Positions 1,973-43,058 of a stretch of 47,954 bases of DNA are shown here, piece after piece. The translations under genes and the position numbers were made by a program. The DNA comes from Halobacteriales archaeon QS_1_69_70 (GTDB lineage: Archaea > Halobacteriota > Halobacteria > Halobacteriales > Haloarculaceae): positions 1 through 47,954 of the forward strand of contig PXRI01000024.1 in assembly GCA_003021005.1 (NCBI GenBank), read 5' to 3'. Numbering within the stretch: position 1 is the stretch's first letter; each line of letters starts with the position of its first letter. Below the pieces are notes generated by a model. It was not told where the DNA came from. It made no database searches and saw only the letters and a program-made list of their open reading frames with translations.

Positions 1973-2322
1973 ATGAGCAATCCATGGATCGCCGTCGGGG
2001 CGCTGGCGCTTGTGGGCGTACTCATCCCGCTGTCGATGGTGGCGATGTCGAGGCTCCTCCGCCCGAGCGTGCCCGAACAGGGCAAGCGCGCCATCTACGA
2101 GTCCGGCGAGGTCCCGACGGGGTCGACGCGCATCCGGTTCAACGTCCAGTACTACCTGATCGCGTCTACAGCGACGCCGTCACCGAGTTCGGGCTGGCGT
2201 CCGTGCTGGGCCCGATGCTCGTCTTCCTCGCGGTGCTCATCGTCGGCCTCGGCTGGGCGTGGCGGAAGGGCGCCGTCCGCTGGGTGCAGAGCGACCGCGC
2301 GGAGATCAAGAGCCAACTATGA
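1973..2322 (+). pseudogene. nuoA: NADH-quinone oxidoreductase-like subunit A, internal deletion
   Basis: This would be the small membrane subunit A of the complex I-like enzyme. Residues 1-64 read normally, with TM1 and the conserved stretch 'PSVPEQGKRAIYESGE' ending at 'FNVQYYLIA'. The sequence then jumps at 2164-2166 into another frame beginning 'VYSDAVTEFGLA' and continuing to the normal C terminus 'RAEIKSQL'. From memory of haloarchaeal NuoA, the missing part is about 19 residues: most of TM2, including the usual acidic FDxE segment. The frame change implies a lost length of 3n+1 bases. The stop overlaps the nuoB start (ATGA). No functional NuoA can be made from this sequence as given; an assembly error is possible. 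Confidence 0.8.
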
Positions 2323-3023
2323 GCAGCGATCAGACAGTCCACGACACGGTCTCGACACAGGACGCCCGGATGGGCGAGGGCGTCGACAGCCGGTTCAACT
2401 CGAAGCTGCGTGAGGCGTTCGGCGCCTCGCCGTTTATCCTCACGAAGTTCGACCAGTTCATGAACTGGGTCCGGAGTTCGTCGATGTTCATGCTGCAGTT
2501 CGGCATCGCCTGCTGCAGCATCGAGATGATCCACACCTACGCGATCAAGCACGACCTGGACCGCTTCGGCGCGGGCGTGCCGCGGGCCTCGCCCCGGCAG
2601 GCGGACGTCATCATCGTCCCGGGGACCATCGTCTCGAAGTTCGCCCCGCGGATGAAGCGGGTGTACGACCAGATGCCCGAGCCGAAGTTCGTCGTGGGGA
2701 TGGGTTCGTGTACCATCTCCGGCGGCCCGTTCCAGGAGGGCTACAACGTCATCAAGGGCGCCGAGGAGGTCATCCCGGTCGACATCCACGTGCCGGGCTG
2801 TCCGCCCCGGCCGGAGGCGCTCATCTACGGGATCGCGAAGCTCCAGGAGCGCGTCGCCAACGGCGAGACGTCGCCGGTGACGGTCAAGCCGTACGAACTC
2901 GAGCAGTTCGGCGACCTCGAGCGGGACGAGCTGGTACAGCACCTGGCCGACGAGATCGACGAGGACGACCTCGTGATGCGGTACGACTGGGCGAACGCCC
3001 CCGACGCCCCCCAGACGCCATGA
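2319..3023 (+). CDS. nuoB: NADH-quinone oxidoreductase-like subunit B
   Basis: NuoB carries the N2 [4Fe-4S] cluster next to the quinone site of the peripheral arm. The four ligands are visible: the Cys65-Cys66 pair in 'GIACCSIEM', Cys131 in 'GSCTISGG' and Cys161 in 'PGCPPRP'. The 234-residue length fits haloarchaeal members, with an N-terminal extension of about 30 residues and an acidic C-terminal tail. The ATG at 2319 overlaps the nuoA stop by four bases and its own stop overlaps the nuoCD start, so translation is probably coupled. No damage is seen. Confidence 0.96.
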
Positions 3024-4598
3024 GCTTAGAAGAGCCCCGACCGACGGACGTCGGCGAGACCCCCGACGGCGCTGTCGACTACGACGAACTCGAGGAGCTG
3101 CTCGGCGACGCCGTCGTCGACCGGGAGACACACGTCAACGCATCCGCCTTCGTCGTGCGGCCGGACGCCGTCCAGACGGCGCTGTCGGCGCTCCGGGCGG
3201 AGGCCGGCTTCGACTACCTGTCCTGTGTCACCGCCCAGGAGTACCCCGACCGCTACGAGTCGATCTACCACCTCAAGAAGTACGACGACCCGACCCAGGA
3301 GGTCGGCGTCGTGGTCCCAACCGCGACCGACGACCCCGTAAGCGAGACGGCGGAGCCGGTCTACCGGACCGCCGACTGGCACGAGCGGGAGGCCTACGAC
3401 CTCGTCGGCATCGAGTACGACGGCCACCCGGACCTCAGCCGGATCCTCCTGCCCGAGACCTGGCAGGGCCACCCGCTGTCGCGGGACTACAACCCGGAAC
3501 AGCCCCAGGTCGTGCCGTTCCGGGAGCACGCCAACCCCCTGGAGGCCGACCAGCGGAGCGGGGCCGAGGAGACCGGCGAGTCCGACACGATGTTCATCAA
3601 CATCGGGCCTCACCACCCGGCGACCCACGGCGTCCTCCACGTCGAGACGGTACTCGACGGCGAGCAGATCGCCGACGTCGAACCGGACATCGGCTACCTC
3701 CACCGCTGCGAGGAGCAGATGTGCCAGCAGGGCACCTACCGCCACCAGATCATGCCCTACCCGGACCGCTGGGACTACGTCTCGGCGGGCATCCTCAACG
3801 AGTGGGCCTACGCGCGCGCCGCGGAGGACCTCGCGGACATCGAGGTGCCCGAGTACGCCCAGGTCATCCGGACGATGGCGGCGGAGCTGTGCCGGATCGC
3901 GAGCCACATGCTCGCGCTGGGGACGTTCTGTCTGGACGTCTTCGGGGACTTCACCGCGACTCCCGGAGCCCCGCGAGGCGTTCTTCGAGAAGATCCGGGA
4001 CTTCCTCGACGATCTGCCCCGGAAGATGACGGAGTACCACAACCTGGTCACCTCCAACGAGATCTTCCAGGTCCGGTGTGTCGACACCGGCGTCCTCCCG
4101 CCCGACGTGGCGAAGCAGTACGGCGCCACCGGCCCGGTCGCCCGCGGCTCCGGCGTCGACTTCGACCTCCGCCGGGACGATCCCTACGGCTACTACGGCG
4201 ACCTCGACTGGGACGTCATCACCGAAGCGGGCTGTGACAACTATAGCCGCGTGCTCGTCCGGCTGCAGGAGGTCGAGGAGTCCGCGAAGATCATCGAGCA
4301 GTGCGTCGACCTGCTCGCCGACTGGCCCGACGAGGAGCGCACCATCCAGTCGAACGTCCCGCGGACGCTCAAGCCCGACCCCGACACCGAGATCTACCGC
4401 GGCGTCGAGGCCGCGAAGGGCGAACTCGGCATCTACATGCGGTCGGACGGCACCGACACGCCCGCGCGGTTCAAGATCCGGAGCCCCTGTTTCTGTAACC
4501 TCCACACGCTCCGGGAGATGACCCAGGGCGAGTACGTCCCGGACCTCATCGCCTCGCTCGGCAGCCTCGACATCGTCCTCGGGGAGGTCGACCGGTAG
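3020..4598 (+). pseudogene. nuoCD: Fused NuoC-NuoD subunit, internal deletion in the NuoD part
   Basis: Subunits C and D form the quinone-reducing module with NuoB. The N-terminal 180 residues are the NuoC (30 kDa) domain, with '[19 protein letters not shown]'. The NuoD (49 kDa) domain starts near residue 190 with '[15 protein letters not shown]'. The first frame ends as a good match at 'DVFGDFTA' (near 3958). The second frame starts at 3960 with '[19 protein letters not shown]' and runs to the normal C terminus 'LGSLDIVLGEVDR'. About 35 residues expected between them, including the 'RMMFNYFRLGGV' region, are absent, and the lost length must be 3n+2 bases. Both flanks are otherwise intact. 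The fusion of C and D is normal in haloarchaea. Confidence 0.85.
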
Positions 4599-5660
4599 AT
4601 GCTCCCGGGCCAGACCACGCTCCCGGACACCATCGGTCGCCTGCTCGGGTTCGGCTCCGAGCTGTCGCCCGCCCAGGACTTCCTGGCGTCGTTCATCGGC
4701 GCGGCCCTGGTCGGCACGCTGATGCTGTCGATGACCGCGGTGGCCGGCCCGTGGGCCAAGCGGAAGATCACCGCCGCGTTCACCGACCGCTACGCCGTCA
4801 ACCGCGTCGGCCCCGCCGGCCTGCTCATCATCGTCGCCGACGCCGTCCGGCTGCTCTCGAAGGAACTCATCGTTCCCGAGGGCGTCGACCGCCCGGCGTG
4901 GGACCTCGCGCCCCTGCTCTTGACGTGGTCGGCGCTGCTCGGCTTCGCGGTCATCCCGATGGGCAACGGCATCCACCTCGCCGACCCCGAGGTCGGGCTC
5001 GTGTACGTCTTCGCCGTCGCCTCCATCGCGTCGGTCGCCCTGGTGATGGCCGGCTACGCGTCGAACAACAAGTACTCGATGCTCGGCGGGCTCCGCGCCG
5101 TCGCCCAGAACCTCGCCTACGAGATCCCTCTGGTGCTGATCGCGGCCTCCGTCGTGCTGTTCGCCGGCACGCTACAGATGAGCGAGATCGTCTCGGCCCA
5201 GCAGGTGGCCCTGTTTTCGATCGCCGGCGTCACCATCCCGTCGTGGTACGCCTTCGTCAACCCCTTCGCGTTCGTCCTGTTCATGGTCGCGAACCTGATG
5301 GAGGTCGGCCGCAACCCCTTCGACATCCCGGAGGCGCCGACGGAGATTGTCGCCGGCTACCAGACCGAGTACTCCAGCGTCTACTTCGTGTTGGTGTACC
5401 TCGGGGAGTTCATCCACATCTTCCTCGGCGGCGCCATCGTCGCCACGGTGTTCCTCGGCGGCCCCGGCGGCCCCGTGCTGCCCGGGATCGCCTGGTTCCT
5501 CGTGAAGATCTGGGCCGTCTTCCTGTTCACCCAGTGGGCGCGCTCGGCGCTGCCGCGGCTCCGCATCGACCAGCTCATCCAGATCGGCTGGAAGGGCATG
5601 CTGGTGCTGTCGTTCGCGAACCTGATCCTCACCGCCGTCATCGTGGGGGTGATCGCCTGA
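4599..5660 (+). CDS. nuoH: NADH-quinone oxidoreductase-like subunit H
   Basis: NuoH anchors the peripheral arm to the membrane arm and lines the quinone channel. The 353-residue protein has about eight hydrophobic segments. It contains the conserved loops 'DRYAVNRVGPAGLL', 'KELIVPEGVDRP' and 'NPFDIPEAPTEIVAGYQTEY', the last being the family signature facing the quinone site. The ATG follows the nuoCD stop with no gap. The gene is full length and undamaged. Confidence 0.95.
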   Translation: MLPGQTTLPDTIGRLLGFGSELSPAQDFLASFIGAALVGTLMLSMTAVAGPWAKRKITAAFTDRYAVNRVGPAGLLIIVADAVRLLSKELIVPEGVDRPAWDLAPLLLTWSALLGFAVIPMGNGIHLADPEVGLVYVFAVASIASVALVMAGYASNNKYSMLGGLRAVAQNLAYEIPLVLIAASVVLFAGTLQMSEIVSAQQVALFSIAGVTIPSWYAFVNPFAFVLFMVANLMEVGRNPFDIPEAPTEIVAGYQTEYSSVYFVLVYLGEFIHIFLGGAIVATVFLGGPGGPVLPGIAWFLVKIWAVFLFTQWARSALPRLRIDQLIQIGWKGMLVLSFANLILTAVIVGVIA

Positions 5661-5662
5661 CC

Positions 5663-6124
5663 ATGATCGGGATGCTCAAATCGATGGCCACGACGATGAA
5701 ACACGCCCTGGGCGGCGAGAAGTTCACCGTCGAGTACCCTGACGACACCCCCGACGTCTCCCCGCGGTTCCGCGGCGTCCACAAGTTCAGCCAGGAGCGC
5801 TGCATCTGGTGTCGCCAGTGTGAGAACGTCTGCCCGAACGACACCATCCAGATCGTCACCGACGAACAGCGCAACGGCGAGCAGTACAACCTCCACATCG
5901 GCCAGTGCATCTACTGTCGGCTCTGCGAGGAGGTCTGTCCCGTCGACGCCATCCTGCTCACCCAGAACTTCGAGTACACCGGCGACACCAAGGACGACCT
6001 CGCCTACGACATGGAGGAGCTGAAGAACGTCCCCTGGTACAAGGACATCGACCCGCTCTCGTCACGCGAACCCGACCGCGGCGCCTGGATCGGCGAGGGC
6101 GAAGGCGCGGTCGACTACCACTGA
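5663..6124 (+). CDS. nuoI: NADH-quinone oxidoreductase-like subunit I (8Fe ferredoxin type)
   Basis: NuoI carries two [4Fe-4S] clusters that pass electrons to NuoB. Both binding motifs are complete: Cys47, 50, 53 and 57 ('CIWCRQCENVCP') and Cys82, 85, 88 and 92 ('CIYCRLCEEVCP'). The 153-residue length and the C-terminal 'YDMEELKNVPWYKDIDPL' fit the archaeal form. It starts two bases after the nuoH stop. It is the last gene before the interruption of the operon, and a large hairpin begins right after its stop codon. Confidence 0.96.
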   Translation: MIGMLKSMATTMKHALGGEKFTVEYPDDTPDVSPRFRGVHKFSQERCIWCRQCENVCPNDTIQIVTDEQRNGEQYNLHIGQCIYCRLCEEVCPVDAILLTQNFEYTGDTKDDLAYDMEELKNVPWYKDIDPLSSREPDRGAWIGEGEGAVDYH

Positions 6125-6125
6125 A

Positions 6126-6172
6126 CCTTTTTGCACGCTCGGCGCGCCTGCGGCGCGCCTCGCGGCAAAAAC
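6126..6172. terminator. Large hairpin after nuoI, possible terminator
   Basis: An outer stem pairs the TTTTTGC near 6128 with GCAAAAA near 6165. The inner part has two copies of the palindrome GGCGCGCC (6141-6148, 6152-6159) separated by TGC. It begins a few bases after the nuoI stop codon, so it may end the nuoA-I transcript. I recall similar hairpins with T/A-rich feet as recurrent elements in haloarchaeal genomes, but cannot check this here. Confidence 0.5.
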
Positions 6173-6539
6173 GTTCATGAAAAAGACACGGCGGGCCTCC
6201 AGCCGCGGCGCTGCGCGCCGCGTTAGTCGGCCCTTGGTCCCGCGCCTCGCTGTCGCTCGGCGCGGTGAACCGCTCGCTCACTCCGTCGCTCGCGGATACT
6301 TGTGGCGGTGTGGATCGATCATACCAAAGTAACCATTCTAATGGTCCGACTTGTGTGTGGCTGCCAAGGAGCCGAGTACAGAGAAACTGATTCTGATTGC
6401 AGACCACTGACCCAATACTAATATAAAGGTTTAAAAAACAAGTATATAACATTAAATTACTGGGGGGTAAATACCCGCGTAGCGCAATCCCCCACCTCAA
6501 CACTCTACCGACCACAATCACCACCTGGAACGACCACCG
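6173..6539. other. Gene-free stretch between nuoI and the lipoprotein gene
   Basis: The first half (to about 6300) is GC-rich, with a further 8-bp hairpin (CGCGGCGC, TGC, GCGCCGCG) near 6204-6222. The second half (about 6320-6475) is markedly AT-rich for this genome, with runs such as ATATAAAGGTTTAAAAAACA and AGTATATAAC. Those runs resemble archaeal promoters, but no convincing gene follows on either strand. I see no tRNA or coding frame. Confidence 0.5.
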
Positions 6540-7190
6540 CTAATCGACAACGAGGCTAAAACCCCATCGGAATCTAAGTCTGGGCTGATCGGCTTCCAGA
6601 TCGTCATACACATCGTACCTGTTTCGGAACGAGTGCGTACCGGTCTTGTAGCAGGTCGACGTGTCGTTGAGGGCATGAATGTACCGTATGCCCTCGATTC
6701 GGTCATCAGGTGGTAGTTGTTTACGGGAGTATGCACCGTCGGCGGCTGCCGGGCCCCGAGCACAGCCGCCGTCTGCCCTGGGAGCGCGGGTCTCAGACAC
6801 CCACAGGCCGCCGTCGCTGCCGGCGGGGGGAAACGGTAGAGGGACCGCTGCATGCATCGCCCACGGCCGGTTATCCCGGTTGTGGAGCCCGATCCTCAAT
6901 ATTCCGTCCTCCCCGTCAGCGGGCTGCTCTTCGAGTTCGACCTCACCGGCAAACGGAACCGCCTCGGGGAGAACATCGATACGGAGTTCAGAGAAGGGTT
7001 CGCCGTCAAGGGCGACGTGCCGCTGATCGGTGGCTTCATACACAGGTTGATTTGCGTCGGGGGTCGGCGAATCTGTCGTCGTGGTATCCGCGGGGGAAGG
7101 CGTGGGGGTTGTTGTAGGCTCTTTGACCTCCCCAGTACAGCCACCGAATGCGGCCACCAGAGCCGTCCCGAGTAGGTCGCGTCTTTTCAT
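6540..7190 (-). CDS. Tat-type lipoprotein of unknown function
   Basis: The 216-residue product begins MKRRDLLGTALVAAFGGC, a twin-arginine signal followed by a lipobox Cys at position 18, so it should be exported folded and lipid-anchored outside the membrane. A Thr/Pro-rich linker (about residues 24-47) leads to a soluble domain that includes 'VPFAGEVELEEQP', 'RPWAMHAAVPLPF' and a Cys pair that could form a disulfide. I do not recognise the domain. The gene runs opposite to the nuo genes, and a TATA-like AATAAATT near 7214-7225 suits a leaderless start. It sits where most haloarchaea run straight from nuoI to nuoJ, so it is probably an insertion into the operon. Confidence 0.75.
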   Translation of the reverse strand: MKRRDLLGTALVAAFGGCTGEVKEPTTTPTPSPADTTTTDSPTPDANQPVYEATDQRHVALDGEPFSELRIDVLPEAVPFAGEVELEEQPADGEDGILRIGLHNRDNRPWAMHAAVPLPFPPAGSDGGLWVSETRAPRADGGCARGPAAADGAYSRKQLPPDDRIEGIRYIHALNDTSTCYKTGTHSFRNRYDVYDDLEADQPRLRFRWGFSLVVD

Positions 7191-7432
7191 GTGGGGTGTA
7201 TGTTACCCTATGTCAATTTATTAGCTCCGAAAACATCACTACATATTTGATATTCCCTACCATTTATACCATATTTACGCACGCATGGAGATCTGGTGTA
7301 GGTCGACCCCGACGTCCTCGAGGAACTGGCGGAGTTCGTCGCCGAGGACATCGGCGTCCTGTAGATCGGCGGGGGTGACGCCACGCGCGGCCGGGGTGTA
7401 TGCCTTTACGCCTGGCCCTGGAGGGGTGAGAC
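7191..7432. other. AT-rich divergent promoter region with a possible gene remnant
   Basis: The left part (about 7200-7290) is AT-rich and holds the promoter of the leftward lipoprotein gene. On the minus strand at 7275-7400 one frame reads 'TPADLQDADVLGDELRQFL' and then 'VGVDLHQISMRA' with a stop. It looks protein-like but has no start codon, so it may be the end of a lost gene. The right part holds the TATA-like CCTTTACG at 7403-7410, placed 27 nt before the next rightward gene. Confidence 0.4.
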
Positions 7433-7840
7433 ATGGTGACGCCGTCGGCCTGTTGGGCCGAGATCAACGCGCTCCACGAGTTTTTCGTGGCCTGGTTTGA
7501 CGGGTCGGTCCCGCGGCGGGAACTATCGCGGCTCGAGCGGGCGCTCGCCCCCGAGTTCGAGATGGTCACCACCGAGGGCGAGCGGGTCGACCACGCGGCG
7601 CTCGTCGACGGGCTCGCGGAGTCGTACGGCCGCACGGAGGGCGAGCCCTTCGACATCGAGGTACGGGAAGTCGAGGTCCTCGAACTGTTCGAGGACCACG
7701 CCGTCGTCCGGTACGAGGAATGGCAGCGCCGGGGCGAGGAGGAGACCGGGCGGGTGAGCACGGCGCTGTTCCGCGCCGACGCCGACACGCCCGAGGGGGT
7801 CGTCTGGGTGACCCTCCAGGAGACGGCGCTGGAGGGTTGA
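7433..7840 (+). CDS. NTF2-like / SnoaL-like (DUF4440-type) protein
   Basis: The 135-residue acidic protein has the order typical of small NTF2-like fold domains: a helix ('INALHEFFVAWFDG'), a 'FEMVTTEGERVDHAALVDGL' section, then strands ending in 'GVVWVTLQETALEG'. Such proteins include enzymes and ligand-binding domains, so the function is open. A TATA-like box 27 nt before the ATG predicts a leaderless transcript. It lies inside the nuo operon between nuoI and nuoJ1 but has its own promoter. No defect is visible. Confidence 0.65.
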   Translation: MVTPSACWAEINALHEFFVAWFDGSVPRRELSRLERALAPEFEMVTTEGERVDHAALVDGLAESYGRTEGEPFDIEVREVEVLELFEDHAVVRYEEWQRRGEEETGRVSTALFRADADTPEGVVWVTLQETALEG

Positions 7841-8092
7841 GCCGCGGCCCGTGGTGGTACGGCGCCGGCCGGTGGGCGGTTCGTCCTCATTGGGCTGCCG
7901 GGGGGCGGACAGGGCGTGCCTGTGAGCGTTCCGTCGGCGTCGGGTGGCCGGTGGCGGTCGGTCACAGACGGCGGTCTGTCAGTGGTTCCGAAATCAGGCG
8001 ATAGGGGCCCGTTCCGGGCGCTCGAGCGGCCCAACGGCCGCCTCCGCTCCACCGCGCGTGTGCAAGCCGGATGCCCGGCTCGCAAAGGAAAT
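7841..8092. other. Gene-free spacer before nuoJ1
   Basis: This GC-rich spacer holds no convincing coding frame, RNA or repeat. It ends with the promoter of the second half of the nuo operon. Confidence 0.5.
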
Positions 8093-8100
8093 CTTCAAAG
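8093..8100 (+). promoter_or_regulatory. TATA-like box of the nuoJ1-N half-operon
   Basis: CTTCAAAG within AAATCTTCAAAG lies about 27 nt before the nuoJ1 ATG, the spacing of leaderless haloarchaeal transcripts. It would let nuoJ-N be transcribed despite the interruption after nuoI. Confidence 0.45.
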
Positions 8101-8124
8101 GGAACCCCGCTGCAGGGGTACACG

Positions 8125-8403
8125 ATGGCTGTGGCACCGTACGAGATGCTGGCGTTCCTCTTGTTCGCCCTCGTGACGGTCGGGGCGAGCCTGGGCGTCG
8201 TCCTGGTCCGTGACGTGTGGCACTCGGCGCTCATGTTGGGCGTCGCGCTGCTCTCGGTCGCGATCCACTACGTCCTGTTGCGAGCCGCGTTCCTGGCGGC
8301 GATGCAGGTGCTCGTGTACGTCGGCGGCGTGTTGATCCTCATCACCTTCGCCGTCATGCTGGTCCGCCGCGAGAGCGGGCCGGAGACGGAGGTGGCGCCG
8401 TGA
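8125..8403 (+). CDS. nuoJ1: NADH-quinone oxidoreductase-like subunit J, N-terminal half
   Basis: NuoJ is a small membrane subunit of the proton-pumping arm. This 92-residue protein has three hydrophobic helices and the family signature 'AAMQVLVYVGGVLILITFAV' in its third helix, the region of the pi-bulge that links quinone chemistry to pumping. In haloarchaea subunit J is split over two genes, so the short length is expected. Its TGA overlaps the GTG start of the next gene. The ATG at 8125 is chosen for its spacing to the upstream TATA-like box. Confidence 0.9.
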   Translation: MAVAPYEMLAFLLFALVTVGASLGVVLVRDVWHSALMLGVALLSVAIHYVLLRAAFLAAMQVLVYVGGVLILITFAVMLVRRESGPETEVAP

Positions 8404-11046: not shown

Positions 11047-12597
11047 GTGCTGGTCGAGGCCCTCATCGCGGTCCCCCTGGTCGGCGCCGCCGTCGTCGCG
11101 GTCGCGCCGAACGAGTACGCCGAACGACTCGCCCTCGGCGTCTCCGCCGTCCCGCTCGTCGGCTCGCTGTACATGTACCTCGCCTTCGACGGCAGCGGGA
11201 ACGCGCTGTTGGGCGGCGACGTCGCCTACGAGACGTTCTTCGAGTGGCTGACGCTCGGGCCCTACGCCGTCAACTACCACGTGGGGCTGGACGGCGTCTC
11301 GCTGCCGCTCGTCGTCATGACCACGGTGTTGACGACGCTGTCGATCCTCAGCGCCTGGACGCCCATCGACGACCGGCAGCGCCAGTTCTACGGCCTGATG
11401 CTGTTCATGGAGGCCGCACTCGTCGGCGTGTTCGCCGCGCTCGACTTCCTGTTGTGGTTCGTGTTCTGGGAGGCCGTGCTGGTCCCGATGTACTTCCTCA
11501 TCGGCGTCTGGGGCGGCCCGCGGCGGAAGTACGCCGCGATCAAGTTCTTCGTCTACACGAACATCGCGTCGCTCGTGATGTTCATCGGCTTCTTCGCCCT
11601 CGTGTTCGGACTCGGCGACGCCGTCGGCTCGACCGGCCTGCCGGAGATCGCCCAGGCGCTGCGGGCCGGCCAGCTCGGCGCGCTCGGCCTGCCCGGCACC
11701 GGCGCCGCCATCCCGGCCGACGTCCTGGCGCTTTCCGCGTTCGTCGCCATGTTCGTCGGGTTCGCGGTGAAGGTCCCGGTCGTGCCGTTCCACACCTGGC
11801 TGCCGGACGCCCACGTCGAGGCCCCGACGCCGGCGTCGGTCATGTTGGCCGGCGTGCTCCTGAAGATGGGGACCTACGCCCTCCTGCGGTTCAACTTCAC
11901 GATGCTGCCGGAGCAGGCGACGACGCTTGCCGTCCCCATCGCCGCCGTCGCCGTCGTCTCCGTCATCTACGGCGCGCTGCTCGCGCTCGCCCAGTCGGAC
12001 CTAAAGCGCATCGTGGCGTACTCGTCGGTGTCCTCGATGGGCTACGTCATCCTCGGGCTCGTCGCGTACAGCTACTACGGGGTCGGCGGCGCCACCTTCC
12101 AGATGATCGCCCACGGCCTCATCTCGGGGCTGCTGTTCATGACGGTCGGCGTGTTCTACAACGCTACCCACACCCGGATGGTCGGCGACATGTCCGGGCT
12201 GGCCGACCGGATGCCCGTCACCGCGAGCGTCTTCGTCGCCGGCGCGTTCGCCTACATGGGGCTGCCGCTCATGGCGGGCTTCGCCGCGGAACTCTTCATC
12301 TTCCTCGGCGCCTTCCGGTCGACCGTGCTGCCCGCCGCGCCGCTGTTCACGGCGGCCGCGATGTTCGGCATCGTCGTCGTCGCCGGCTACCTGCTGTGGG
12401 CGATGCAGCGGTCGCTGTTCGGCCCGTTCCGGCTCGAGACCGACTACGACGTCGGGCGGGCACCCGTCCACGACGTCGCCGCCATCGTGACGCTCGTGGG
12501 TCTCATCGTCCTGCTCGGCACCGCCCCGGAGCTCCTCTACGACATGATGAGCGACGCGACGATCGACGTGGTCGAGATGGGCGGTGAGTTGCCGTGA
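11047..12597 (+). CDS. nuoM: NADH-quinone oxidoreductase-like subunit M
   Basis: NuoM is the second antiporter-like pump subunit. The 516-residue protein has about 13 hydrophobic helices, the conserved Glu of 'FWEAVLVPMYFLIGVWGG', the core motif 'VPFHTWLPDAHVEAPTPASV' and the Lys-containing 'LAQSDLKRIVAYSSVSSMG'. The GTG start follows the nuoL TAG stop directly. Its stop overlaps the nuoN start (GTGA). The gene is intact. Confidence 0.95.
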   Translation: MLVEALIAVPLVGAAVVAVAPNEYAERLALGVSAVPLVGSLYMYLAFDGSGNALLGGDVAYETFFEWLTLGPYAVNYHVGLDGVSLPLVVMTTVLTTLSILSAWTPIDDRQRQFYGLMLFMEAALVGVFAALDFLLWFVFWEAVLVPMYFLIGVWGGPRRKYAAIKFFVYTNIASLVMFIGFFALVFGLGDAVGSTGLPEIAQALRAGQLGALGLPGTGAAIPADVLALSAFVAMFVGFAVKVPVVPFHTWLPDAHVEAPTPASVMLAGVLLKMGTYALLRFNFTMLPEQATTLAVPIAAVAVVSVIYGALLALAQSDLKRIVAYSSVSSMGYVILGLVAYSYYGVGGATFQMIAHGLISGLLFMTVGVFYNATHTRMVGDMSGLADRMPVTASVFVAGAFAYMGLPLMAGFAAELFIFLGAFRSTVLPAAPLFTAAAMFGIVVVAGYLLWAMQRSLFGPFRLETDYDVGRAPVHDVAAIVTLVGLIVLLGTAPELLYDMMSDATIDVVEMGGELP

Positions 12598-15631: not shown

Positions 15632-15632
15632 G

Positions 15633-16640: not shown

Positions 16641-16934
16641 ATGAGCACCCACGCCGGGATCGTCAAGACGCCGAAGGTACTCGGCGGGAAACCCCGGATC
16701 GAGGGTGTCCGCGTCGGCGTCCTCCAGGTCGGCGACTACGTCCGGGAGGTCGGGATGGACGTCGAAACGGTCATGAGCGAGCTCCGTCTCTCCCGCGAGC
16801 AGGTCGATGCCGCCCTCGAGTACTACGACGACCACCCCGACGAGATGGAAACGCTTCGCGCACAGCGCGAGGCGTCGTTCCGCCGGATGGAAGAACAGAA
16901 TCCCACCCCCGGCGAACTGACGGACGGCGAGTAA
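16641..16934 (+). CDS. DUF433 family protein, probable antitoxin
   Basis: The 97-residue protein opens with the DUF433 pattern 'GIVKTPKVLGGKPRIEGVRV', followed by a helix-turn-helix-like 'GMDVETVMSELRLSREQVDAALEYY'. DUF433 proteins are commonly paired with PIN-like toxins and act as DNA-binding antitoxins. The neighbour 13 nt downstream is a DUF5615 protein, which fits. A GGCGGTGA sequence about 8 nt before the ATG could be a ribosome binding site, unusual in this window. TATA-like AT-rich words lie further upstream (16565-16600), so the mRNA probably has a leader. Confidence 0.8.
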   Translation: MSTHAGIVKTPKVLGGKPRIEGVRVGVLQVGDYVREVGMDVETVMSELRLSREQVDAALEYYDDHPDEMETLRAQREASFRRMEEQNPTPGELTDGE

Positions 16935-22439: not shown

Positions 22440-23261
22440 ATGTTCGAGTACCTCCCATTGGCACACCAGGTCCCGGAGGAGTGGCGGGCGCAGTCTGCGG
22501 TGTTCAGCGAGCTGTTCTTCGTCTTCCTGGTCGTCGGCACGCTAGTCGGCGTCGTTGTCGTCGCGTACACCCTGTACAACCTCTACCGGAACCGCGACGA
22601 CGGCACCGGTCCGGAGGGGTTCGAGGCCCCCCAGCTCGGCGAACTCCCGACCGGCCAGACCGGCGGCAAGAGCAGCAAGCTCTTCCTGTCGTTCGGACTC
22701 AGCGCCATCATCGTCATCAGCCTCGTGGTCTACTCCTACGGCCTGCTCCTGTATGTCGAGCAGGGGCCCAGCGGCGACGTCGCCGAGGAACAGAACATGG
22801 AGGTCGAGGTGGTCGGCCTGCAGTTCGCCTGGCAGTTCCACTACCCGAACGGCGTCCAGACCACCGGTACCCTCAACGTGTCGAAGGGTGAGGTGGTACG
22901 CCTGGCGGTGACCTCGGACGACGTCTGGCACAACTTCGGGGCGCCCGAGTTACGCGTCAAGGCCGACGCCATCCCCGGGGAGTACTCCCACACCTGGTTC
23001 ATCGCCAACGAGACGGGGACCTACGACGTGAAGTGCTACGAACTCTGCGGGAGCGGCCACTCACAGATGACGGCCGAGATCGTGGTCATGGAGGAAGAGA
23101 AGTTCGACGACTGGTACGAGTCCGCCGGCGCGAACGTCACCGAGACGCCCACGCCGACGCCGGACGACCACGGCGGCGAGGACGACGAGGGCGGCGGTCA
23201 CGGGAGCGTGCCCGCCCACGGTGACGCCGCGACGACCGCCCGGATGGGGGTGGCGGCATGA
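22440..23261 (+). CDS. coxB: Cytochrome c oxidase subunit II (CuA)
   Basis: CoxB accepts electrons at a binuclear CuA centre on the outer face. The 273-residue protein has two membrane helices (about 22-46 and 82-105) and a cupredoxin domain. All CuA ligands are present: His164, then Cys199, Glu201, Cys203, His207 and Met210 in 'CYELCGSGHSQM'. The tail from about residue 230 is rich in Thr, Pro, His, Asp and Gly. No heme c motif is present, so the donor is probably a copper protein, as in other haloarchaea. The TGA overlaps the coxAC start codon. Confidence 0.96.
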   Translation: MFEYLPLAHQVPEEWRAQSAVFSELFFVFLVVGTLVGVVVVAYTLYNLYRNRDDGTGPEGFEAPQLGELPTGQTGGKSSKLFLSFGLSAIIVISLVVYSYGLLLYVEQGPSGDVAEEQNMEVEVVGLQFAWQFHYPNGVQTTGTLNVSKGEVVRLAVTSDDVWHNFGAPELRVKADAIPGEYSHTWFIANETGTYDVKCYELCGSGHSQMTAEIVVMEEEKFDDWYESAGANVTETPTPTPDDHGGEDDEGGGHGSVPAHGDAATTARMGVAA

Positions 23262-25667
23262 GCGGCCTTCCGCCCTCCTACTCCCCGAAGCGCTGGCTCG
23301 TCACGACCAACCACAAGGACATCGGCATCCTCTATCTCCTCACGTCGCTTTTCTTCCTGATCTTCGGCGGCGTGCTGGCGCTTTTGATCCGCCTCCAGCT
23401 GCTCCCGGGCGGACAGTTCATGTCCGGGATGGCGTACAACCAGACCGTCACCGGCCACGGCCTCATCATGGTCTTCTGGTTCCTGTCACCGTTCGCGTTC
23501 GGCTTCGCGAACTACGTCGTCCCGCTACAGATCGGAGCCGACGACCTGGCGTTCCCCCGACTCAACGCGCTGTCGTACTGGATGTACCTCCTCTCCGGCG
23601 TCCTGCTGGGGGTATCGTTCTTCCAGGGGGAGTCGCTGAGCACCGGGTGGACGATCTACGCACCGCTCAACGTTCCCGCCTACACCCCCGAGGTCGGCGC
23701 CACCGGGGCGGTGCTGGCGCTGTCGATGTTCGTCGTCGCCGTCACCGCCTCCACCATCAACTTCCTGACCACCATCCACCACTCCCGCGCGGAGGGCATG
23801 GGCCTCATGGACATGCCGATGTTCACCTGGTCGATCCTCGCGACGGTGTGGATGATGCTTTTCGCCTTCGCCACGCTACTCGGCGCCGGACTCATCCTCG
23901 CGGCCGACCGCGTTGTCGGCAGTCTCTACTTCACCGCCGAGGAGGGCGGGTCGCTGCTCTGGGGCCACCTCTTTTGGTTCTTCGGCCACCCCGAGGTCTA
24001 CATCGTGTTCTTCCCCGCCCTGGGGATCATGCTGGAGCTGTTCCAGTCGTACTCCGGCAACCGGCTGGTCGGCCGGAAGTGGACCATCATCGCCATCGTC
24101 CTGATCTCGGTGCAGTCGTTCCTCGTCTGGATGCACCACATGTTCCTGACCACGATCAACCTCGAGGTCAAGACGCTGATTATGGCCAGCACCATCGGCA
24201 TCTCGCTGCCGTTCGACCTCCTGGTCTTTGCGCTCATCTACACGCTCATCAAGGGCCGGATCAAGCTGAAGACGCCGTTTTTGTTCGCGCTCGGCGCGCT
24301 CCTGTTGTTCATCCTCGGCGGCATTACCGGGGTGTTCCTCGGCGCCATCGTGCTCGACTACGAGTTCCGCGGCACCTACTGGGTCGTCGCGCACTTCCAC
24401 TACGTCATGTTCGGCGGCGCGACGGCGATGATCGGCGGCGCCTACTACTGGTACCCGAAGATGACGGGGAAGATGTACGACGAACTCCTCGGGAAGATCC
24501 ACTTCGCGGTCTTTTTCGTCTCGTTCAACATGGTGTACTTCTCGATGTTCATGGCCTGGGAGATGCCGCGCCGCGTCTTCGAGTACAGCCAGGACTACGT
24601 CGAGATCAACACGTTCGGCACAGTTCACCCGGACCGCCGAGTGGGCGGTCCCGTCCCCGCCGCCGCTGGAGAACTGGGAGGGCCGCCCATCGTACGCGAC
24701 CGGGCGGCTGGAGTTCCTCGAGCGCGGCCACGCCGCCGACGGGGGGCGACCCGCCTCGGAGCTGGCGTCCGAGGGCGGCGGCGCTGCCACGGACGGGGGC
24801 CACGCCCACGCCGACGAGGCCAGCGACTACATCCTCGGCGACAAGCACCACTCGCATGCGAGCATCTGGCCGTTCGCGCTGAGTCTGGCGACGTTCGTCG
24901 CCCTGCTCGGCGCCTCCGGCATCCGTCGGTCTATGTCGTTCGTCGGCGGTCCGAACTCGCTGTCCGGCGTCGACGTCGTCGTCTCGAACCCGGTCTACCC
25001 AGCGCTCACGTTGGTCGGTGCCCTCGGTATGCTGTACGCCGGCATCCAGTGGGGCCTCGAGGACTTCTTCGCGCCGCCGGCGGAGGTCGCGAGCCGGTGG
25101 CCCTTCGACGGCGTCGAGAAGAACAAGCTCGGCGTGTGGTTCTTCTTGGCGTCGGACGTCCTCGTGTTCGGCGCGTTCATCTCCGCCGCCGTCTTCATCC
25201 GCGTGAACAGCGGTTGGACGAGCTGGGAGCCGCTGCCGGCCGAGATCCCCGGTCTCATCAACACCTACGTGCTGTTGACCTCCTCGTTCACCGTCATCAT
25301 GGCGCTCGTGTACTCGAAGCGCCAGGAGCGCGGGAAGATGCTCGCCAGCCTCGCGGCGACCATCGGTCTCGGCCTGACGTTCCTCGCCATCAAGGGCTGG
25401 GAGTGGCACCACGAGATCTACGACGCCGGCATCACGCTCACCACGAACCCGCACGGCCCGGACATCCAGTCGACGCTGTATTACGTCACGACCGGGCTGC
25501 ACGGCATCCACGTCGTCCTCGGGCTGCTCGTCGCGGCGTTCCTCCTGTACCGCGGCTACCGAGGCCACTATATGCACGACCACCGGCCGGTGGAGTACTT
25601 CGGGCTCTACTGGCACTTCGTCGACATCGTGTGGGTGTTCCTGTTCCCGCTGTTCTACCTCGTCTGA
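23258..25667 (+). pseudogene. coxAC: Fused cytochrome c oxidase subunits I and III, internal deletion at the junction region
   Basis: Subunit I holds the low-spin heme and the heme-CuB oxygen site. All ligands are visible: His67, His244 with Tyr248 ('GHPEVYIV'), His293/His294, His379 and His381. The first frame reads well to 'DYVEINTFGTV' (residue 456, near 24625). The next sensible sequence, 'TRTAEWAVPSPPPLENWEG', is in another frame from about 24627. It runs through a His/Gly-rich linker into subunit III ('FFLASDVLVFGAFISAAVFI') and ends normally at 25667. About 35-45 residues, the last helix of subunit I, seem to be lost, with a frame change of 3n+2 bases. The I-III fusion itself is normal in this group. 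As given, only a truncated subunit I would be made. Confidence 0.85.
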
Positions 25668-32291: not shown

Positions 32292-32932
32292 TCAATTGTC
32301 CCGCAGGCGGGCCAGCACCGGGATCTCATCCAGGCGCTCCTCGTCGATCCGGTCCCAGTCGATGCCCGAGGGTTTCGGACCGGGCTCGTCGACCCGGAGG
32401 GTCCGCGTCGGCGTGCAGACGACGTCGATGGGGACGTCGCCTCGTCGGCGGCCCCGAGTTCCCACAGGATCGCGAACTCGAGGTCGCTGAACCCCTCGCC
32501 CTTCCCGACGCGGACGCCCTCGACGGTGACCGCGACGCTCCCGACGACGATGGCGTCCAACGGCGGGACCGCCTCGGGTCCGACGCGCCGCCCGTGGTCG
32601 TCCATGTGGGAGACGGTCGGCGCCGCATCCAGGTCCGTGACGGCGTCGGGGTCCAGTTCCAGGAACGGTGCCTCGTCGGCGAGCCGCGGCGCCGCCACGT
32701 ACAGCGTCGTGCCGGCCCGGAGCAGCCGGCGGCGGAGCGGCAACTGCGGCGCGTCGGGGTTGGCCTTCACCGCGTCGGCACCGGCGAGTTCGGGCGTCCC
32801 CATCGCGCGATCGGCGGCGGTCTCGGCGCCGGCGACGTTCGGGATGCGGTCGTGCGGCGGGAACGGGAACCGCGCCTCGCCGCTGTCCGCGAGGTCGTCC
32901 CAGACCTGCTGCCGGATCGCCTCCTTGGCCAT
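32292..32932 (-). pseudogene. 5-formyltetrahydrofolate cyclo-ligase, internal deletion
   Basis: The enzyme converts 5-formyl-THF to 5,10-methenyl-THF using ATP. The N-terminal part, starting MAKEAIRQQVWDDL, reads normally through 'VKANPDAPQLPLRRRLLRAG' and 'VGKGEGFSDLEFAILWELG', the last being the family's GKGxGYxD motif. After 'ADEAT' the frame changes at about 32434-32440. The C terminus 'PIDVVCTPTRTL' to 'PVLARLRDN' follows in another frame. Roughly 20 residues expected between ('TVHxxQVVD' region) are missing. With the gap, the first frame reads on into the downstream gene. The start is the ATG that gives the usual N terminus. Confidence 0.8.
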
Positions 32933-33032
32933 GCCGGACACTGGGTCGGCCGGCCTCATCGACCTTCCGCCCGCCGCCCGGCGGCTCCGGCGTCACAGCC
33001 CCTGTCCCTCGGTCCCGCAACAGGGCCGCCGC

Positions 33033-34885: not shown

Positions 34886-34909
34886 ACCCCCGTGGTCGAA
34901 CCCGGCGGC

Positions 34910-36007: not shown

Positions 36008-36010
36008 CCG

Positions 36011-36433: not shown

Positions 36434-36933
36434 CGCAGCTCCCGGTCGATCTCGGCCTGGGTGACGTCGAAGAACTGGTCGTCCGGCAGCGGCACGTCGA
36501 GGACGGGCAGGTCCGTCGGCTCGCCCTCGCGGTCGAAGGCTCGCCAGTCGTCGCGGCCGTACGGCGCGCCGACGATGACGTGGACGTCACCGCGCTGGAA
36601 CGTCGCGAGGTCGGCGTCGCTGGGCCGCAGGACGCCGTTCGGGTGCGAGTGAATCGACCCGACGCTCCGGAGGTCGTTCGGCATGTAGCTCGGGTTGAAC
36701 TCCGCGCTGACCGGGTTCGTCTTCGTGCCCGGCGCGAGAAGCACGTCCGTGACGACAGTGCCCTCGCGATCGACGCCGAGCGACCGGGCGTCCTCGCCGC
36801 GGAGCTGGCCCATGTACTCGCTGGGGTGGGAGTCCTCGGAGGCCCGTAGCGCGAACGCCAGGGCCTCCTCTGCGATGCCGACGACCTCGCCCGACCGGAA
36901 CAGCGACGGCATCCAGGACCCGAGCAGTCCCAT
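36430..36933 (-). CDS. JAMM/MPN+ metalloprotease (possible deSAMPylase)
   Basis: The 167-residue protein carries a complete JAMM zinc motif: Glu39, then His95, His97, Ser105 and Asp108 in '[20 protein letters not shown]'. In haloarchaea such enzymes remove ubiquitin-like SAMP proteins from targets or process them. I recall a related JAMM gene lying next to ribL in Haloferax. The predicted leaderless promoter is CCTTAGTT (complement of 36957-36964), shared with the divergent RecJ-like gene. The reason for coupling with RibL is unknown. Confidence 0.88.
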
Positions 36934-36956
36934 GGCCGCCCGTCGGGAGCCGCGAC

Positions 36957-37016
36957 AACTAAGGCTTCCGGTGGCCGCTGTAACACCGTCCAGCCGGACA
37001 ACAACACGCTTAAACG
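36957..37016. promoter_or_regulatory. Divergent promoter between JAMM-ribL and the RecJ-like gene
   Basis: The leftward box is at 36957-36964 (27 nt before the JAMM start). The rightward box is CGCTTAAACG at 37007-37016 (about 27 nt before the RecJ-like start). Both predict leaderless transcripts. Confidence 0.6.
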
Positions 37017-37038
37017 CCGCCGGAGCCGACACGACGTA

Positions 37039-38946: not shown

Positions 38947-38950
38947 CCGG

Positions 38951-40627
38951 TCACGGCTGCCAGCCGACTACCCCCTCCCGCCCCACGACGTCGATCCGGC
39001 GCGCGAGGAGCGCGGCGGCCGCAACCGCGACGCCGGCGAGGCCGACGAGTGCCGTCGGGACCGACCGCCCGGCCGGGCCCGACCAGTCCGATTCGAACAC
39101 CGACGCGTAGTAGTCGGCCGCCTCGCCGCCCTCGAGGGCGAGCAGTACCTCCCGGTTCTCGGTCTGGGCCGCCGCGCCCCAGTTGAGGCTGCCGACGAGC
39201 GCCGCGTCGTCGACGACCACCCCCTTCGAGTGCAGCTTCTCGTAGCCCCGTGGTTCGTCCACGCGGGCCTCGAGGTCCCAGCCGGCCGCGTCCGCGCGGC
39301 GGTTCAGCCACGACGCGAGCGCCGCGTTGTCCCCCTCGGCGTACCACCCACTCGACAGCAGAATCCGGACGCGGACGCCGCGGTCGGCCGCCCGGAGCGC
39401 CGCCCGCAGCAGCCGGTTGTCGCGGCTGTCGACCGTGACCTGCTGGACGAGCACCCGGTCGTCGGCGGCCGCCAGGCGCGCCTCGACGGCATCGGCCGCG
39501 GCGTCCGGCCCGACGAGGACGGCGGCCGACGTGACGGTGACCCGGGATGGTTCGTGGTGCGTGGGGAAGTCGCCGAGCGCGGGGTCGGCGGGCTAGAAGC
39601 TGCGTCCCGCCCGGAACGCCGGCCAGGGGGTCGCCGCGCGGGCGGTCCGGTCGGTCGCGTGGAGGTCGGCCAGGGCGTCGGCGGCGGCCGGGTCGGCGAG
39701 TGTGACGCCCCAGCCGCGGCTGGACATCCCGCCGGTGCCGGCGGGTTTGAAATTCTCGGTGAGCACCACGGCCCGGTCGTCGACGACGGCGTACTTGGCG
39801 TGGTGGTGGGCGTACCGGGTGTAGGGCCCGTCGAACACCCGGACCTCGATGCCCGCCGCGGACAGCCGGTCCAACAGCCGGGCCTGGCGGTCGGTCATGC
39901 CGCCGACGGGCGCGCCGTCGAGCAGCACCCGGACCGTGGTGCCCCGGTCGTGGGCGGCGAGGAGGGCGTCGGTGACCCGTTCGGAGGTCAGGGTGTAGCC
40001 GGCGAGGAGGAGCCGGTCGTCGGCCCGCCGGAGCGTCTCGGCGGTCAGGTCCGGGGCGTCCGGGAGGACGAACGCCGTCGCCGGGCCGCCGCCGGTGCGG
40101 ACGGGGTCGAGGTCGGTCGCACCGAGCGGGCGCCATGCGTCCCGCCGGAAGTTCCGGACCGACGCCTCCGGGGCGTCACGGTAGCGGGCGTCGTCGACCG
40201 TCACGTTCCCGGTCCGGAGGCGGAGGTGCTCGCCACCGTTCGCCAGGCCCAGCCGTCCCTCGATCGAGACGACCGGGTGGTCGGTCTTCGCCGCCGCCAC
40301 GTCCGGCATGGCCGTGAGCGCGACCGTCCCGGAGAGGGTTCGTTGGGGCAACCGGACAGCGGTCGTGCCGTCGGTGAGCGTCCAGCCGGTCGTGTTCGTG
40401 GCCCGGGGAAAGCGGACGACGACGAACTCGCCGGCGTCATCGCGCTCGACGGGATTCGGGTAGGCGGCGACGAGCGTCGCGTTCGCCCTGTCGCTCGCCG
40501 TCGCAGGGCTGGCCGGGGCCGGGCCGGCGTGGGTCCCGGCCGCGACGGGCACGCCGCCGACGGCGAGCGACGTCGCCGCGGCTGCGAGGACGACGGCGAG
40601 CGCGACGGCGAGGTGCCGGGGCCGCAC
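38951..40627 (-). pseudogene. Lamin-tail / phospholipase D-like exported protein, split by an in-frame TAG
   Basis: The full frame is 558 residues plus one internal stop. Residues 1-31 form a signal peptide. A lamin-tail-like domain (about 50-140, 'TLVAAYPNPVERDDAGEFVV') precedes two PLD modules, with HxKxxxxD motifs at 276 ('HAKYAVVDD') and in the second half ('HSKGVVVDD'). A C-terminal membrane helix ends the protein. TAG at 39593-39595 interrupts between the modules exactly where 'GRSF-PADPALGDF' continues in the same frame; a TAC tyrosine would restore it. The GTG start has a TATA-like box, CTTTTGTA, at leaderless spacing (complement of 40651-40658). PLD enzymes need both modules, so the truncated form is probably inactive. 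Confidence 0.85.
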
Positions 40628-40666
40628 GGACAGGGGTGGTCCCGTCCTGGTACAAAAGTCGCGGGG

Positions 40667-41950
40667 TCAGGCGGCGGTGGCGTCGCTGGCCTTCTCGGCT
40701 TCGGCCTGGACGGTGTAGGCGCGGTCCTCGTCGTGTGCGGCGGCGGCCTCGAGGGCGCGCTCGGTCCCGATCTGCACGAGCGCCCAGGCGGCCGAGGCGC
40801 GGACCTCGGTCGGCGCCGCGTCGTCGTCCAGCACGTCGGTAAGCGGGTCGATGGCGCGGGTGTCCCCGAGCAGGCCCAGCGCGCGGGCGGCCTGGCTCCG
40901 GACGCCGGGGGCGTCGTCGGTGAGGGCGTCGGCGACGGCCTGGGTCGCCTCGTGGCTGCCGATCTCGCCGAGCGCGCGGAGCGTGACCCGCTGGAGCGGC
41001 GGGTTGTCGCTGTCGACGAACTCGACGAGCGTGTCGACGGCGCGCTCGTCGCCGATCTTGCCGAGCACCTCGATCTCCGGGCGGCTGCGCTTCTGGGCGG
41101 CCTCGAGCATCAGCTCGACGGCCTCCTCCGGCCCGAGCCGCCGGAGCGCGTCGATACAGTTGTCCACCATGAAGTCCGACTCGAAGTACTCCAGCCCCAG
41201 GAGGATGCGCTCGGGGTCGTGTTCGGCCTCGGCGATGCGGACGACGTTCAGCTCCGGCGGGAAGTCCTTGCGGTTGTCGCCGGTGACGCGGTCGTAGAAC
41301 CCCTGGGCGCGGAGCTGTTCGACGACGGTGAGGTCCGCCCAGGCCTCGGAGGCGTCGAGTTCCTCATCGAGCGTCTCGGCGGCTCCCAGGAGTGCCGCGA
41401 TCGTCTCCTCATCGGCGTCCGGGTCCAGGTCCGCGTCCTCGAGTGCCCCGGCGACCGTCTCGAGGACCTCGGCGTGGGGCTCCAGGCCGTTGCCGTCGGG
41501 GGCGAACGAGTCATCGAGGTCGGCCTCGGCGGAGTCCAGGAACGCGGAGACCGCTGCGATGGCCTCGGCCTCACCGTCCTCGGTCCACCGCGTGTCCCGG
41601 ACGGTGGCGGCGGCGTCCTCGAGGGTCGATGCGACGTCCTCGGCGTAGGGCCCGCGGGCGTCCTCGAGGTCGCCCCTGAGGTCGTCGATCCGCTCCTGGA
41701 GCGCCTCGGCCGGGTCCTCGGTCTCCTCGTCCTCGTCGTCCTCGGGGGCCTCGAGGTCGGCGTCCTCGAGGTCGGTCTCGACGTCGTCGATGGTGGCCTC
41801 GACCTCGTCCAGGTCGGCCTCCGTCTCGGCGTCCTCGAGGGCCTCGGTGGCCTCGTCCAGCCGGTCGCCGAGCGACTCGGCGGTCACCGCCGTCGCGGGG
41901 ACCTCCTCGTCGCCCTCCTCGGCCGCCGCCTCGACGGCAGAACGGGCCAA
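40667..41950 (-). CDS. HEAT-repeat protein with acidic coiled-coil N terminus
   Basis: The first 140 residues are very acidic and helical ('LDEATEALEDAETEADLDEV', 'DDEDEETEDPAEALQERIDD'), probably coiled coil. From about 240, five or so HEAT-like repeats follow, for example 'IEVLGKIGDERAVDTLVEFV', 'LRALGEIGSHEATQAVADAL' and 'ARALGLLGDTRAIDPLTDVL'. Such proteins are scaffolds. The only upstream start in frame is TTG at 41950, and no promoter-like box is seen before it, so the true start may be a GTG about 22 codons in. The gene lies just downstream of pssA on the same strand. Confidence 0.8.
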   Translation of the reverse strand: MARSAVEAAAEEGDEEVPATAVTAESLGDRLDEATEALEDAETEADLDEVEATIDDVETDLEDADLEAPEDDEDEETEDPAEALQERIDDLRGDLEDARGPYAEDVASTLEDAAATVRDTRWTEDGEAEAIAAVSAFLDSAEADLDDSFAPDGNGLEPHAEVLETVAGALEDADLDPDADEETIAALLGAAETLDEELDASEAWADLTVVEQLRAQGFYDRVTGDNRKDFPPELNVVRIAEAEHDPERILLGLEYFESDFMVDNCIDALRRLGPEEAVELMLEAAQKRSRPEIEVLGKIGDERAVDTLVEFVDSDNPPLQRVTLRALGEIGSHEATQAVADALTDDAPGVRSQAARALGLLGDTRAIDPLTDVLDDDAAPTEVRASAAWALVQIGTERALEAAAAHDEDRAYTVQAEAEKASDATAA

Positions 41951-42013
41951 GAGCGTTTCCCTTCGGGGCGGAGACGGCCACGGCTCGGACCCCGAGGCCC
42001 GGGCCGAGAGGCT

Positions 42014-42691
42014 TCACACCTCCCGCCAGTAGAACACCGGCGCAAACACCAGGTAGCCGACGGCGAAGACCAGAAGCGACCGGGGGAACACGCGGTCGAC
42101 GGCGGCCGGGAACAGCACGGCCAGCGCCTGCAGGCCGCCGAGCACCAGCGCGTCACGGGCGTACAGCTCCGGGTAGGTGATCGGCGCGACCATCAGGTAG
42201 GTGAAGGCGGCGGTCGCGCCGAGAAGAACCAGCGGATCGGTGACGCCGGCGAGGTAGGCGACGGCCAGGATGGTGGCGGCGAGCGTCGTCTGAACCCCCT
42301 CGGTCCGCTCTAACTCCCGGTCTTCCAGCATGTAGAAGCCCAGCCGGACCACCGCCATCGCGACGAACAGCGCCGGCACGCCGACCAGCACGACCGTCTC
42401 CGGCGTCGAGCCGCCGAGTGCAGGCCGGGCGAGGGCGAAGACGAAGACGGCGGGCGCGACGGCGAAGGAGGCGACGTCGGCCAGCGAGTCGAGGTGGTCC
42501 CCGACCGGGGTGCTGCCGCGCGCCCGGGCGACGACGCCGTCGAGACCGTCCGCGATGGCCGCCAGGAGGAGCAGGCGGGCGGCGAGCGCGGGCTCGGTGA
42601 TGGCGACCGCAACCGCGAGGAACCCGACCGCCGCGTTGAGGACGGTTACGGCGTCGGCCAGCCCGAGCTGGCCCAGGAAACGCGGCTGCAT
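42014..42691 (-). CDS. pssA: CDP-alcohol phosphatidyltransferase, probable archaetidylserine synthase
   Basis: The integral membrane enzyme joins CDP-archaeol to an alcohol such as serine. The 225-residue protein has six or more helices and a complete CDP-alcohol motif in 'DGVVARARGSTPVGDHLDSL' and the Asp two residues on: Asp51, Gly52, Ala55, Arg56, Gly64, Asp68 and Asp72. The PssA subtype is suggested by length and layout; other alcohol acceptors cannot be excluded. Promoter CCTACTAAGG (complement of 42721-42730) is divergent from the halocyanin-like gene. Confidence 0.88.
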   Translation of the reverse strand: MQPRFLGQLGLADAVTVLNAAVGFLAVAVAITEPALAARLLLLAAIADGLDGVVARARGSTPVGDHLDSLADVASFAVAPAVFVFALARPALGGSTPETVVLVGVPALFVAMAVVRLGFYMLEDRELERTEGVQTTLAATILAVAYLAGVTDPLVLLGATAAFTYLMVAPITYPELYARDALVLGGLQALAVLFPAAVDRVFPRSLLVFAVGYLVFAPVFYWREV

Positions 42692-42720
42692 GGCTCTGTC
42701 TCGCGGGTCGGCAACGGCCG

Positions 42721-42761
42721 CCTTAGTAGGTTCGCTTCCGTCCGCAACCGGGGGGAATATC
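42721..42761. promoter_or_regulatory. Divergent promoters of pssA and the halocyanin-like gene
   Basis: The leftward AT-rich box is at 42721-42730. The rightward box GGAATATC at 42754-42761 lies 25-32 nt before the halocyanin-like ATG, leaderless spacing. Confidence 0.5.
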
Positions 42762-42785
42762 GGTCTCGGGGCCGAACCTCGTCCA

Positions 42786-43058
42786 ATGGATCGCCGTGCG
42801 TACCTGGCGACGGTCGGTGCGGCCGTGACGGCGGCCGTCGCCGGGTGTCCGGACGGGGGCCTCTCCGAGTCGGAGTTCGACGTCGGGATGTCGGCCAACG
42901 CGTTCCTGCCGGACACCTACGAGGCGAACGGCGGTGGGGGGAGCATCAGGGCCGGCGAGACGTACGAACACACCTTCGACACGCCCGGCAACCACCGCTA
43001 CTTCTGCATCCCGCACGAGCGCGACGGGATGACCGGCGTCGTCGCCGTCAGTGAATAA
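42786..43058 (+). pseudogene. Halocyanin-like blue copper lipoprotein with internal in-frame deletion
   Basis: Halocyanins carry electrons to the terminal oxidase on the outer face. The 90-residue product starts MDRRAYLATVGAAVTAAVAGC, a Tat lipoprotein signal with Cys21. The C terminus has three copper ligands, Cys74, His77 and Met82, in 'YFCIPHERDGM'. The first histidine ligand and the strands around it, expected after 'AFLPDTYEA' at about residue 47, are missing. About 50 residues seem to be gone without a frame change, replaced by a Gly-rich junction 'ANGGGGSIRAGE'. Copper binding of the normal type is therefore unlikely. A shorter natural variant cannot be fully excluded. Confidence 0.75.

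Follow-up and report, generated by a model that had tools for sequence, protein, structure and literature searches.

The question raised by this locus is why several conserved genes lack an internal block of sequence while their operon neighbours are whole. We addressed this by comparing the window (the whole stretch of 47,954 nt analysed here) with relatives of the same genus, Natronomonas, among them Natronomonas gomsonensis and Natronomonas sp. CBA1123. The window itself corresponds to contig C24 of a 2.45-Mb haloarchaeal genome in 44 contigs (completeness 82.24, contamination 0.08) that, judged from its draft state, is probably metagenome-derived. In the nuo region, the nearest of the near-complete relatives is G016, with a DNA identity of 86-90%. 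Outside the window, 45 stretches were fetched from the same genome, and four of these (L115, L117, L121 and L126, 20 kb each) were compared with G016 and with a further relative, G018; L115 and L117 were chosen because each holds a run of Ns. Together with the window, the DNA compared comes to ~128 kb over five contigs.

Six genes of the window lack an internal block

A first-pass annotation of the window had named five genes with a missing block, and DNA or protein comparison with relatives bore out all five. That list was incomplete, however, as the gene for ribosomal protein S3Ae is a sixth case. The six genes are as follows.

1973..2322, plus strand: nuoA (complex I chain 3); 55 nt absent at 2164/2165, frame changes (alignment with relatives, Pfam)
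3020..4598, plus strand: nuoCD (PF00329 and PF00346); 110 nt absent at ~3960, frame changes (alignment, Pfam)
23258..25667, plus strand: coxAC fusion (PF00115 and PF00510); 98 nt absent at ~24621, frame changes (alignment, Pfam)
32298..32959 (approximate ends), minus strand: 5-formyltetrahydrofolate (5-FTHF) cyclo-ligase; 64-67 nt absent at ~32434, frame changes (alignment)
42786..43058, plus strand: halocyanin-like copper protein (PF00127); 48 codons (144 nt) absent at ~42923-42935, frame kept (comparison with one relative, G011)
~44358-44918 (start also given as 44361), minus strand: 30S ribosomal protein S3Ae (PF01015); 21 codons (63 nt) absent at ~44466, frame kept (alignment, Pfam)

Alignment with complete homologues, which the annotation had proposed, gave block lengths and junction ends for all five of the genes that it named. 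The measured blocks of 18-48 codons show that its estimate of 20-50 codons was about right, and its statement that reading mostly resumes in another frame holds for four of the five genes. Specifically, in nuoA, nuoCD, coxAC and the 5-FTHF cyclo-ligase gene, homology to the relatives picks up again right at the junction, with the placement of the nuoCD junction being ambiguous by ~2 bases. In Pfam searches the 5' piece of nuoA matches PF00507 and its 51-aa 3' piece matches no family when taken alone; the same is true for the 5-FTHF cyclo-ligase, where PF01812 falls on the 5' piece and the 45-aa 3' piece is without a family match. The halocyanin-like gene covers only positions 64-98 of the 99-position PF00127 profile, as compared to 11-98 for its homologue in G011. 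Regarding S3Ae, a family search of 40 genomes, including that of the window, found a match in 37, exactly one in each. The match in the window's genome stops at profile position 151 of 191 (168 bits) whereas the other 36 reach positions 186-191 (194-222 bits), and the 21-residue block is kept in all 31 relatives that were aligned (G011 and 30 fetched loci, from among the 36 with a match). The neighbouring genes are clean, as had been noted at the outset: nuoB, H, I, K, L, M and N are each free of a missing block, and the alignments of the second nuoJ and of coxB run through unbroken.

Losses of the same kind occur outside the window

The annotation had also suggested a survey of the rest of the genome. 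Carried out on four of the 45 stretches fetched, this survey revealed the same kind of loss in every one of the four. Overall, 15 losses of 55-144 nt are found in the ~128 kb, six in the window and nine in the four 20-kb stretches. The nine outside the window measure 57-130 nt, and five of them come from L115 and L117, the two stretches selected for their N runs. Genes affected there are those for hydantoinase A, succinyl-CoA ligase beta (sucC), a photolyase-related protein and a CPBP-type protease, the last being assigned by a family match under the curated cut-off. Two further losses outside the window were judged to be coding from the reading frames on both sides, and three of the 15 are non-coding or unclear and are poorly aligned at the junction. 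Losses are thus present in all five places compared regardless of function, with the housekeeping genes for S3Ae and succinyl-CoA ligase beta included.

When losses of at least 50 nt relative to G016 are counted in a uniform manner, there are 12 in the window's genome over 80,657 aligned bp, as compared to three in 229,095 bp over six same-genus control genomes (binomial P ~2e-5). The control losses are two in G018 and one in G003, with none in G010, G002, G015 or the MAG G011. The 12 losses do not include nuoA, which was split by the aligner, or the halocyanin and S3Ae losses, where there is no aligned G016 stretch. Extra segments of at least 50 nt relative to G016 are also present, with five in the window's genome and one in the 229 kb of the controls, which means that ordinary divergence may explain some of the surplus of long indels. 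In the window's genome, four long genes for aminoacyl-tRNA synthetases are open throughout (1123, 911, 893 and 794 aa). As 1.3-1.7 losses would be expected in these four genes at the observed rate, the probability of finding none is 0.19-0.27, and their intactness argues only weakly against assembly error. Extrapolation from the sample gives some 290-360 losses genome-wide.

Reading frame, junction ends and substitution patterns

Eight of the 12 coding losses shift the frame (55, 110, 98, 67, 67, 130, 77 and 94 nt), which equals the neutral expectation of two thirds. The remaining four (144, 63, 78 and 72 nt) keep it, and these include the two clearest housekeeping losses, namely 63 nt in S3Ae and 72 nt in sucC. 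The G+C content of the missing blocks, as read from G016, is 0.56-0.77 and not extreme.

Thirteen junctions were aligned with G016 and inspected by eye, using this relative as a proxy for the lost sequence when scoring shared bases. Two junctions, those of the 5-FTHF cyclo-ligase gene and of L117:8707, could share ~4 nt, with G016 as the stand-in, as deletion by strand slippage between short direct repeats would have it. Seven junctions share 0-1 bases, which contradicts repeats at those sites, and in the remaining four the alignment is ambiguous or poor. We therefore give slipped-strand deletion almost no credence.

The bias of substitutions toward third codon positions is similar on both sides of the breaks, with values of 0.78 and 0.69 for the two halves of nuoA, 0.68 and 0.72 for nuoCD, and 0.66 and 0.61 for coxAC, as compared to 0.55-0.81 for intact neighbours. 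The values for the 5-FTHF cyclo-ligase gene are lower (0.49 and 0.54), and this gene is more diverged throughout. No relaxed selection or further lesions were found in nuoA, nuoCD and coxAC, each of which keeps the third-position bias and has a single break. By this measure, both halves of these three genes still look to be under purifying selection. This leaves the suggestion that the cell could have lost both respiratory complexes unsupported, as both halves of nuoA, nuoCD and coxAC retain the substitution pattern of their intact neighbours. Loss of the respiratory pathway by ordinary pseudogenisation would fit the fact that complex I and the oxidase are both struck. However, neighbours in the same operons are intact, the broken halves keep purifying selection, and unrelated genes, including one for a ribosomal protein, are struck as well, a spread that by itself contradicts loss of a pathway. 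The chance that pseudogenisation accounts for the blocks is accordingly negligible. The lack of decay in the halves of the genes tested also means that the losses tested, if real, would have to be very recent.

Marked gaps that could be sized are too short

The 857,228 bp sampled from this genome contain six runs of Ns. Four of these could be sized by relatives, and all four are too short.

144 Ns: true length ~292 nt, sized by G018
116 Ns: true length ~297 nt, sized by G016
65 Ns: true length ~166 nt by G011, 445 nt by G018
49 Ns: true length ~95 nt; 107 nt by G018

The two unsized runs are one of 21 Ns at L280:18560, which lies amid dispersed intergenic repeats, and one of 135 Ns at L338:600. 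Given that marked gaps are under-sized, other gaps would be expected to fall to zero and be joined unmarked. There is no clean size threshold, as a gap of ~95-107 nt was given 49 Ns, yet blocks of 98-144 nt were given none. No coding loss below ~55 nt was found, a lower limit that assembly error does not account for.

nuo genes in other genomes

We also compared nuo genes in other genomes. The best 80 of 157 nuo loci were used, grouped according to the titles of their records, with trimmed references and a missing block defined as at least 36 nt. Records not titled as MAGs are referred to as non-MAG and, to judge by their titles, are isolates. Two of the nine nuo genes in the window have a missing block, a share above chance when set against the counts for non-MAG records and for MAGs outside the QS_/QH_ series. 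Among these best 80 of 157 loci, no missing block was found in 479 nuo genes of non-MAG records or in 81 nuo genes of 12 MAGs outside the QS_/QH_ series, and two were found in 96 nuo genes of QS_/QH_ MAGs, where a single MAG of the 12 accounts for both; the rarity of the signature within this series counts against the assembly-error reading. The MAG concerned, QS_8_69_26 (locus L037), lacks 98 nt of nuoB and 133 nt of nuoI, with hardly any additional bases where the ends meet. In two non-MAG records among the same best 80 loci there is a simple frameshift, with no block missing.

A wider survey of genes at the nuo loci returned six calls: the two in L037, the window's nuoCD, one antisense call at the site of the nuoA junction, and a pair, set aside here, that arose from a different antisense reference frame (one in the window and one in L042). 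In L021, what looked like a deletion around nuoI was produced by the aligner's placement of gaps and was not counted. A codon-usage hidden Markov model for detecting frame switches without relatives was dropped, as it gave 6.2 calls per 100 kb in controls versus 4.2 in the window's genome and also missed nuoA and coxAC.

Origin of the missing blocks

Several lines of evidence lead us to conclude with high confidence that the missing blocks are local assembly errors. The losses occur everywhere that was compared, they strike housekeeping genes, they ignore the reading frame, and the assembly that contains them has N gaps that, where sized, are too short. The clean ends at the clear junctions and the absence of such losses from the nuo genes of non-MAG records point the same way. 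In the mechanism that we propose, assembled pieces would end on either side of a short unassembled stretch, and a scaffolding step would set these pieces side by side with a gap estimate that is too small, often zero or below. The ends would then be written directly adjoining each other with no N in between. Such joins presumably stem from paired-end scaffolding, and the genes of the living cell are very probably intact. Of the three causes first offered for the missing blocks, the one involving an assembly process that drops segments is therefore strongly favoured, and a real deletion process is unlikely. The third, mixing of strains or species, was tested indirectly, and conservation between species is unremarkable in those missing blocks for which a score was obtained.

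This last result bears on a specific form of assembly error in which segments that are identical in co-occurring species are discarded by the assembler as ambiguous k-mers. The nuoA block would suit such a process, as it is well conserved among relatives (identity 0.93, with 32 nt in a row identical in G016 and G018). However, eight of the 13 blocks could be scored, and these are no more conserved between G016 and G018 than their surroundings, with the fraction of local windows that are as conserved or more so being 0.155, 0.657, 0.152, 0.827, 0.374, 0.826, 0.572 and 0.961. Discarding of shared k-mers is thus an improbable route to the losses. We consider it less probable still that segments of 55-144 nt are being removed genome-wide by a real and recent process in this Natronomonas lineage, such as blunt end-joining or the action of an aggressive nuclease. 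This process would have to make clean-ended deletions faster than selection clears them, while leaving the most essential genes intact or with frame-keeping losses only. The clear junctions are indeed clean with homology picking up at them, the S3Ae and sucC losses keep the frame as a living cell would need, and the four synthetase genes are intact. The losses in multiples of three in S3Ae and sucC, together with the open synthetase genes, do give a real process a slight chance. On the other hand, such a process would imply the several hundred losses extrapolated above, all too recent for decay to appear in the halves of the genes tested. Furthermore, the frame is disregarded overall, no such loss is seen in the non-MAG nuo genes among the best 80 of 157 loci, and N runs are mis-sized in the same assembly. 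A real process of this kind is consequently very unlikely.

With local assembly error as the preferred explanation, the missing blocks are very probably without significance as biology, and their value is one of caution. By extrapolation, there could be a few hundred sites with unmarked joins in this draft genome. They could give a false look of complex I and oxidase loss, perhaps depress marker-gene completeness (82%), and could yield false pseudogenes in comparative work. The combination of clean, frame-ignoring losses of 50-150 nt with N runs that are too short could be used as a cheap screen when drafts are compared with isolates.

Comparison with known assemblies and operons

In the literature searched, coverage of this error type comprises general work on assembly errors and scaffolding, and we do not assert that this signature has gone unreported. 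In the part drawn on here, Chen et al. 2020 (PMC7111523) describe local assembly errors in MAGs that place incorrect gene sequences in databases, and suspect that these are most prominent with IDBA-UD. The faults described there resemble those in the window's genome in that a draft scaffolded assembly is involved and that incomplete or incorrect protein-coding genes result. They differ in that this part of the paper describes consensus sequence that no reads support and Ns placed in spite of an overlap, and does not spell out an unmarked loss of ~55-144 nt, which is seen here by sequence comparison. Finstad et al. 2017 (PMC5532433), in the portion used here, report genomes from Atacama salt crusts, with sites including Qh and Qs, whose assemblies are IDBA_UD scaffolds built from paired reads of 100 bp. 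From its names, we infer that the QS_/QH_ MAG series belongs to that study. The complex I operons of the same genus and of other haloarchaea resemble that of the window in gene content and sequence, and differ in that none of the 479 non-MAG nuo genes from the best 80 of 157 loci has a missing block. A further parallel is provided by QS_8_69_26, which is another organism and, like the window, has nuo genes with missing blocks and near-clean joins.

Repeat and interval downstream of nuoI

The features considered here are as follows (window coordinates).

131-1176: two overlapping frames of one gene, matching a single open frame in G016, the closest near-complete Natronomonas relative in the nuo region
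6123-6330: roughly 200-nt repeat, on the downstream side of nuoI
6540-7190, (-): possible gene
7433-7840, (+): possible gene, for which G016 gives a 75% protein match

Two more copies of the repeat are present in the 857-kb sample of the window's own genome (L280:12187 and L123:9514; 78-88% identity), and segments of the region match several sites of same-genus genomes. Both possible genes lie in the stretch of approximately 1.7 kb that separates nuoI from the following nuo gene (window ~6300-8080); this stretch has no DNA match among the nuo loci listed.

Frameshifts and missing blocks

The gene at 131-1176, which we take to be an insertion-sequence transposase, has frames corresponding to residues 4-200 and 199-357 of the 368-aa G016 open frame, with no missing block between them in this alignment. 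Its break is a simple frameshift. Simple frameshifts with no block gone also occur in two genomes not titled as MAGs, specifically in nuoI of locus L031 (~11159-11192) and nuoN of locus L068 (~16820-16841), and perhaps originated as sequencing errors. The nuo locus of MAG QS_8_69_26 (L037) lacks 98 nt of nuoB at ~8171 and 133 nt of nuoI at ~11312. This draft of a different organism bears the same sign as the window's genome.
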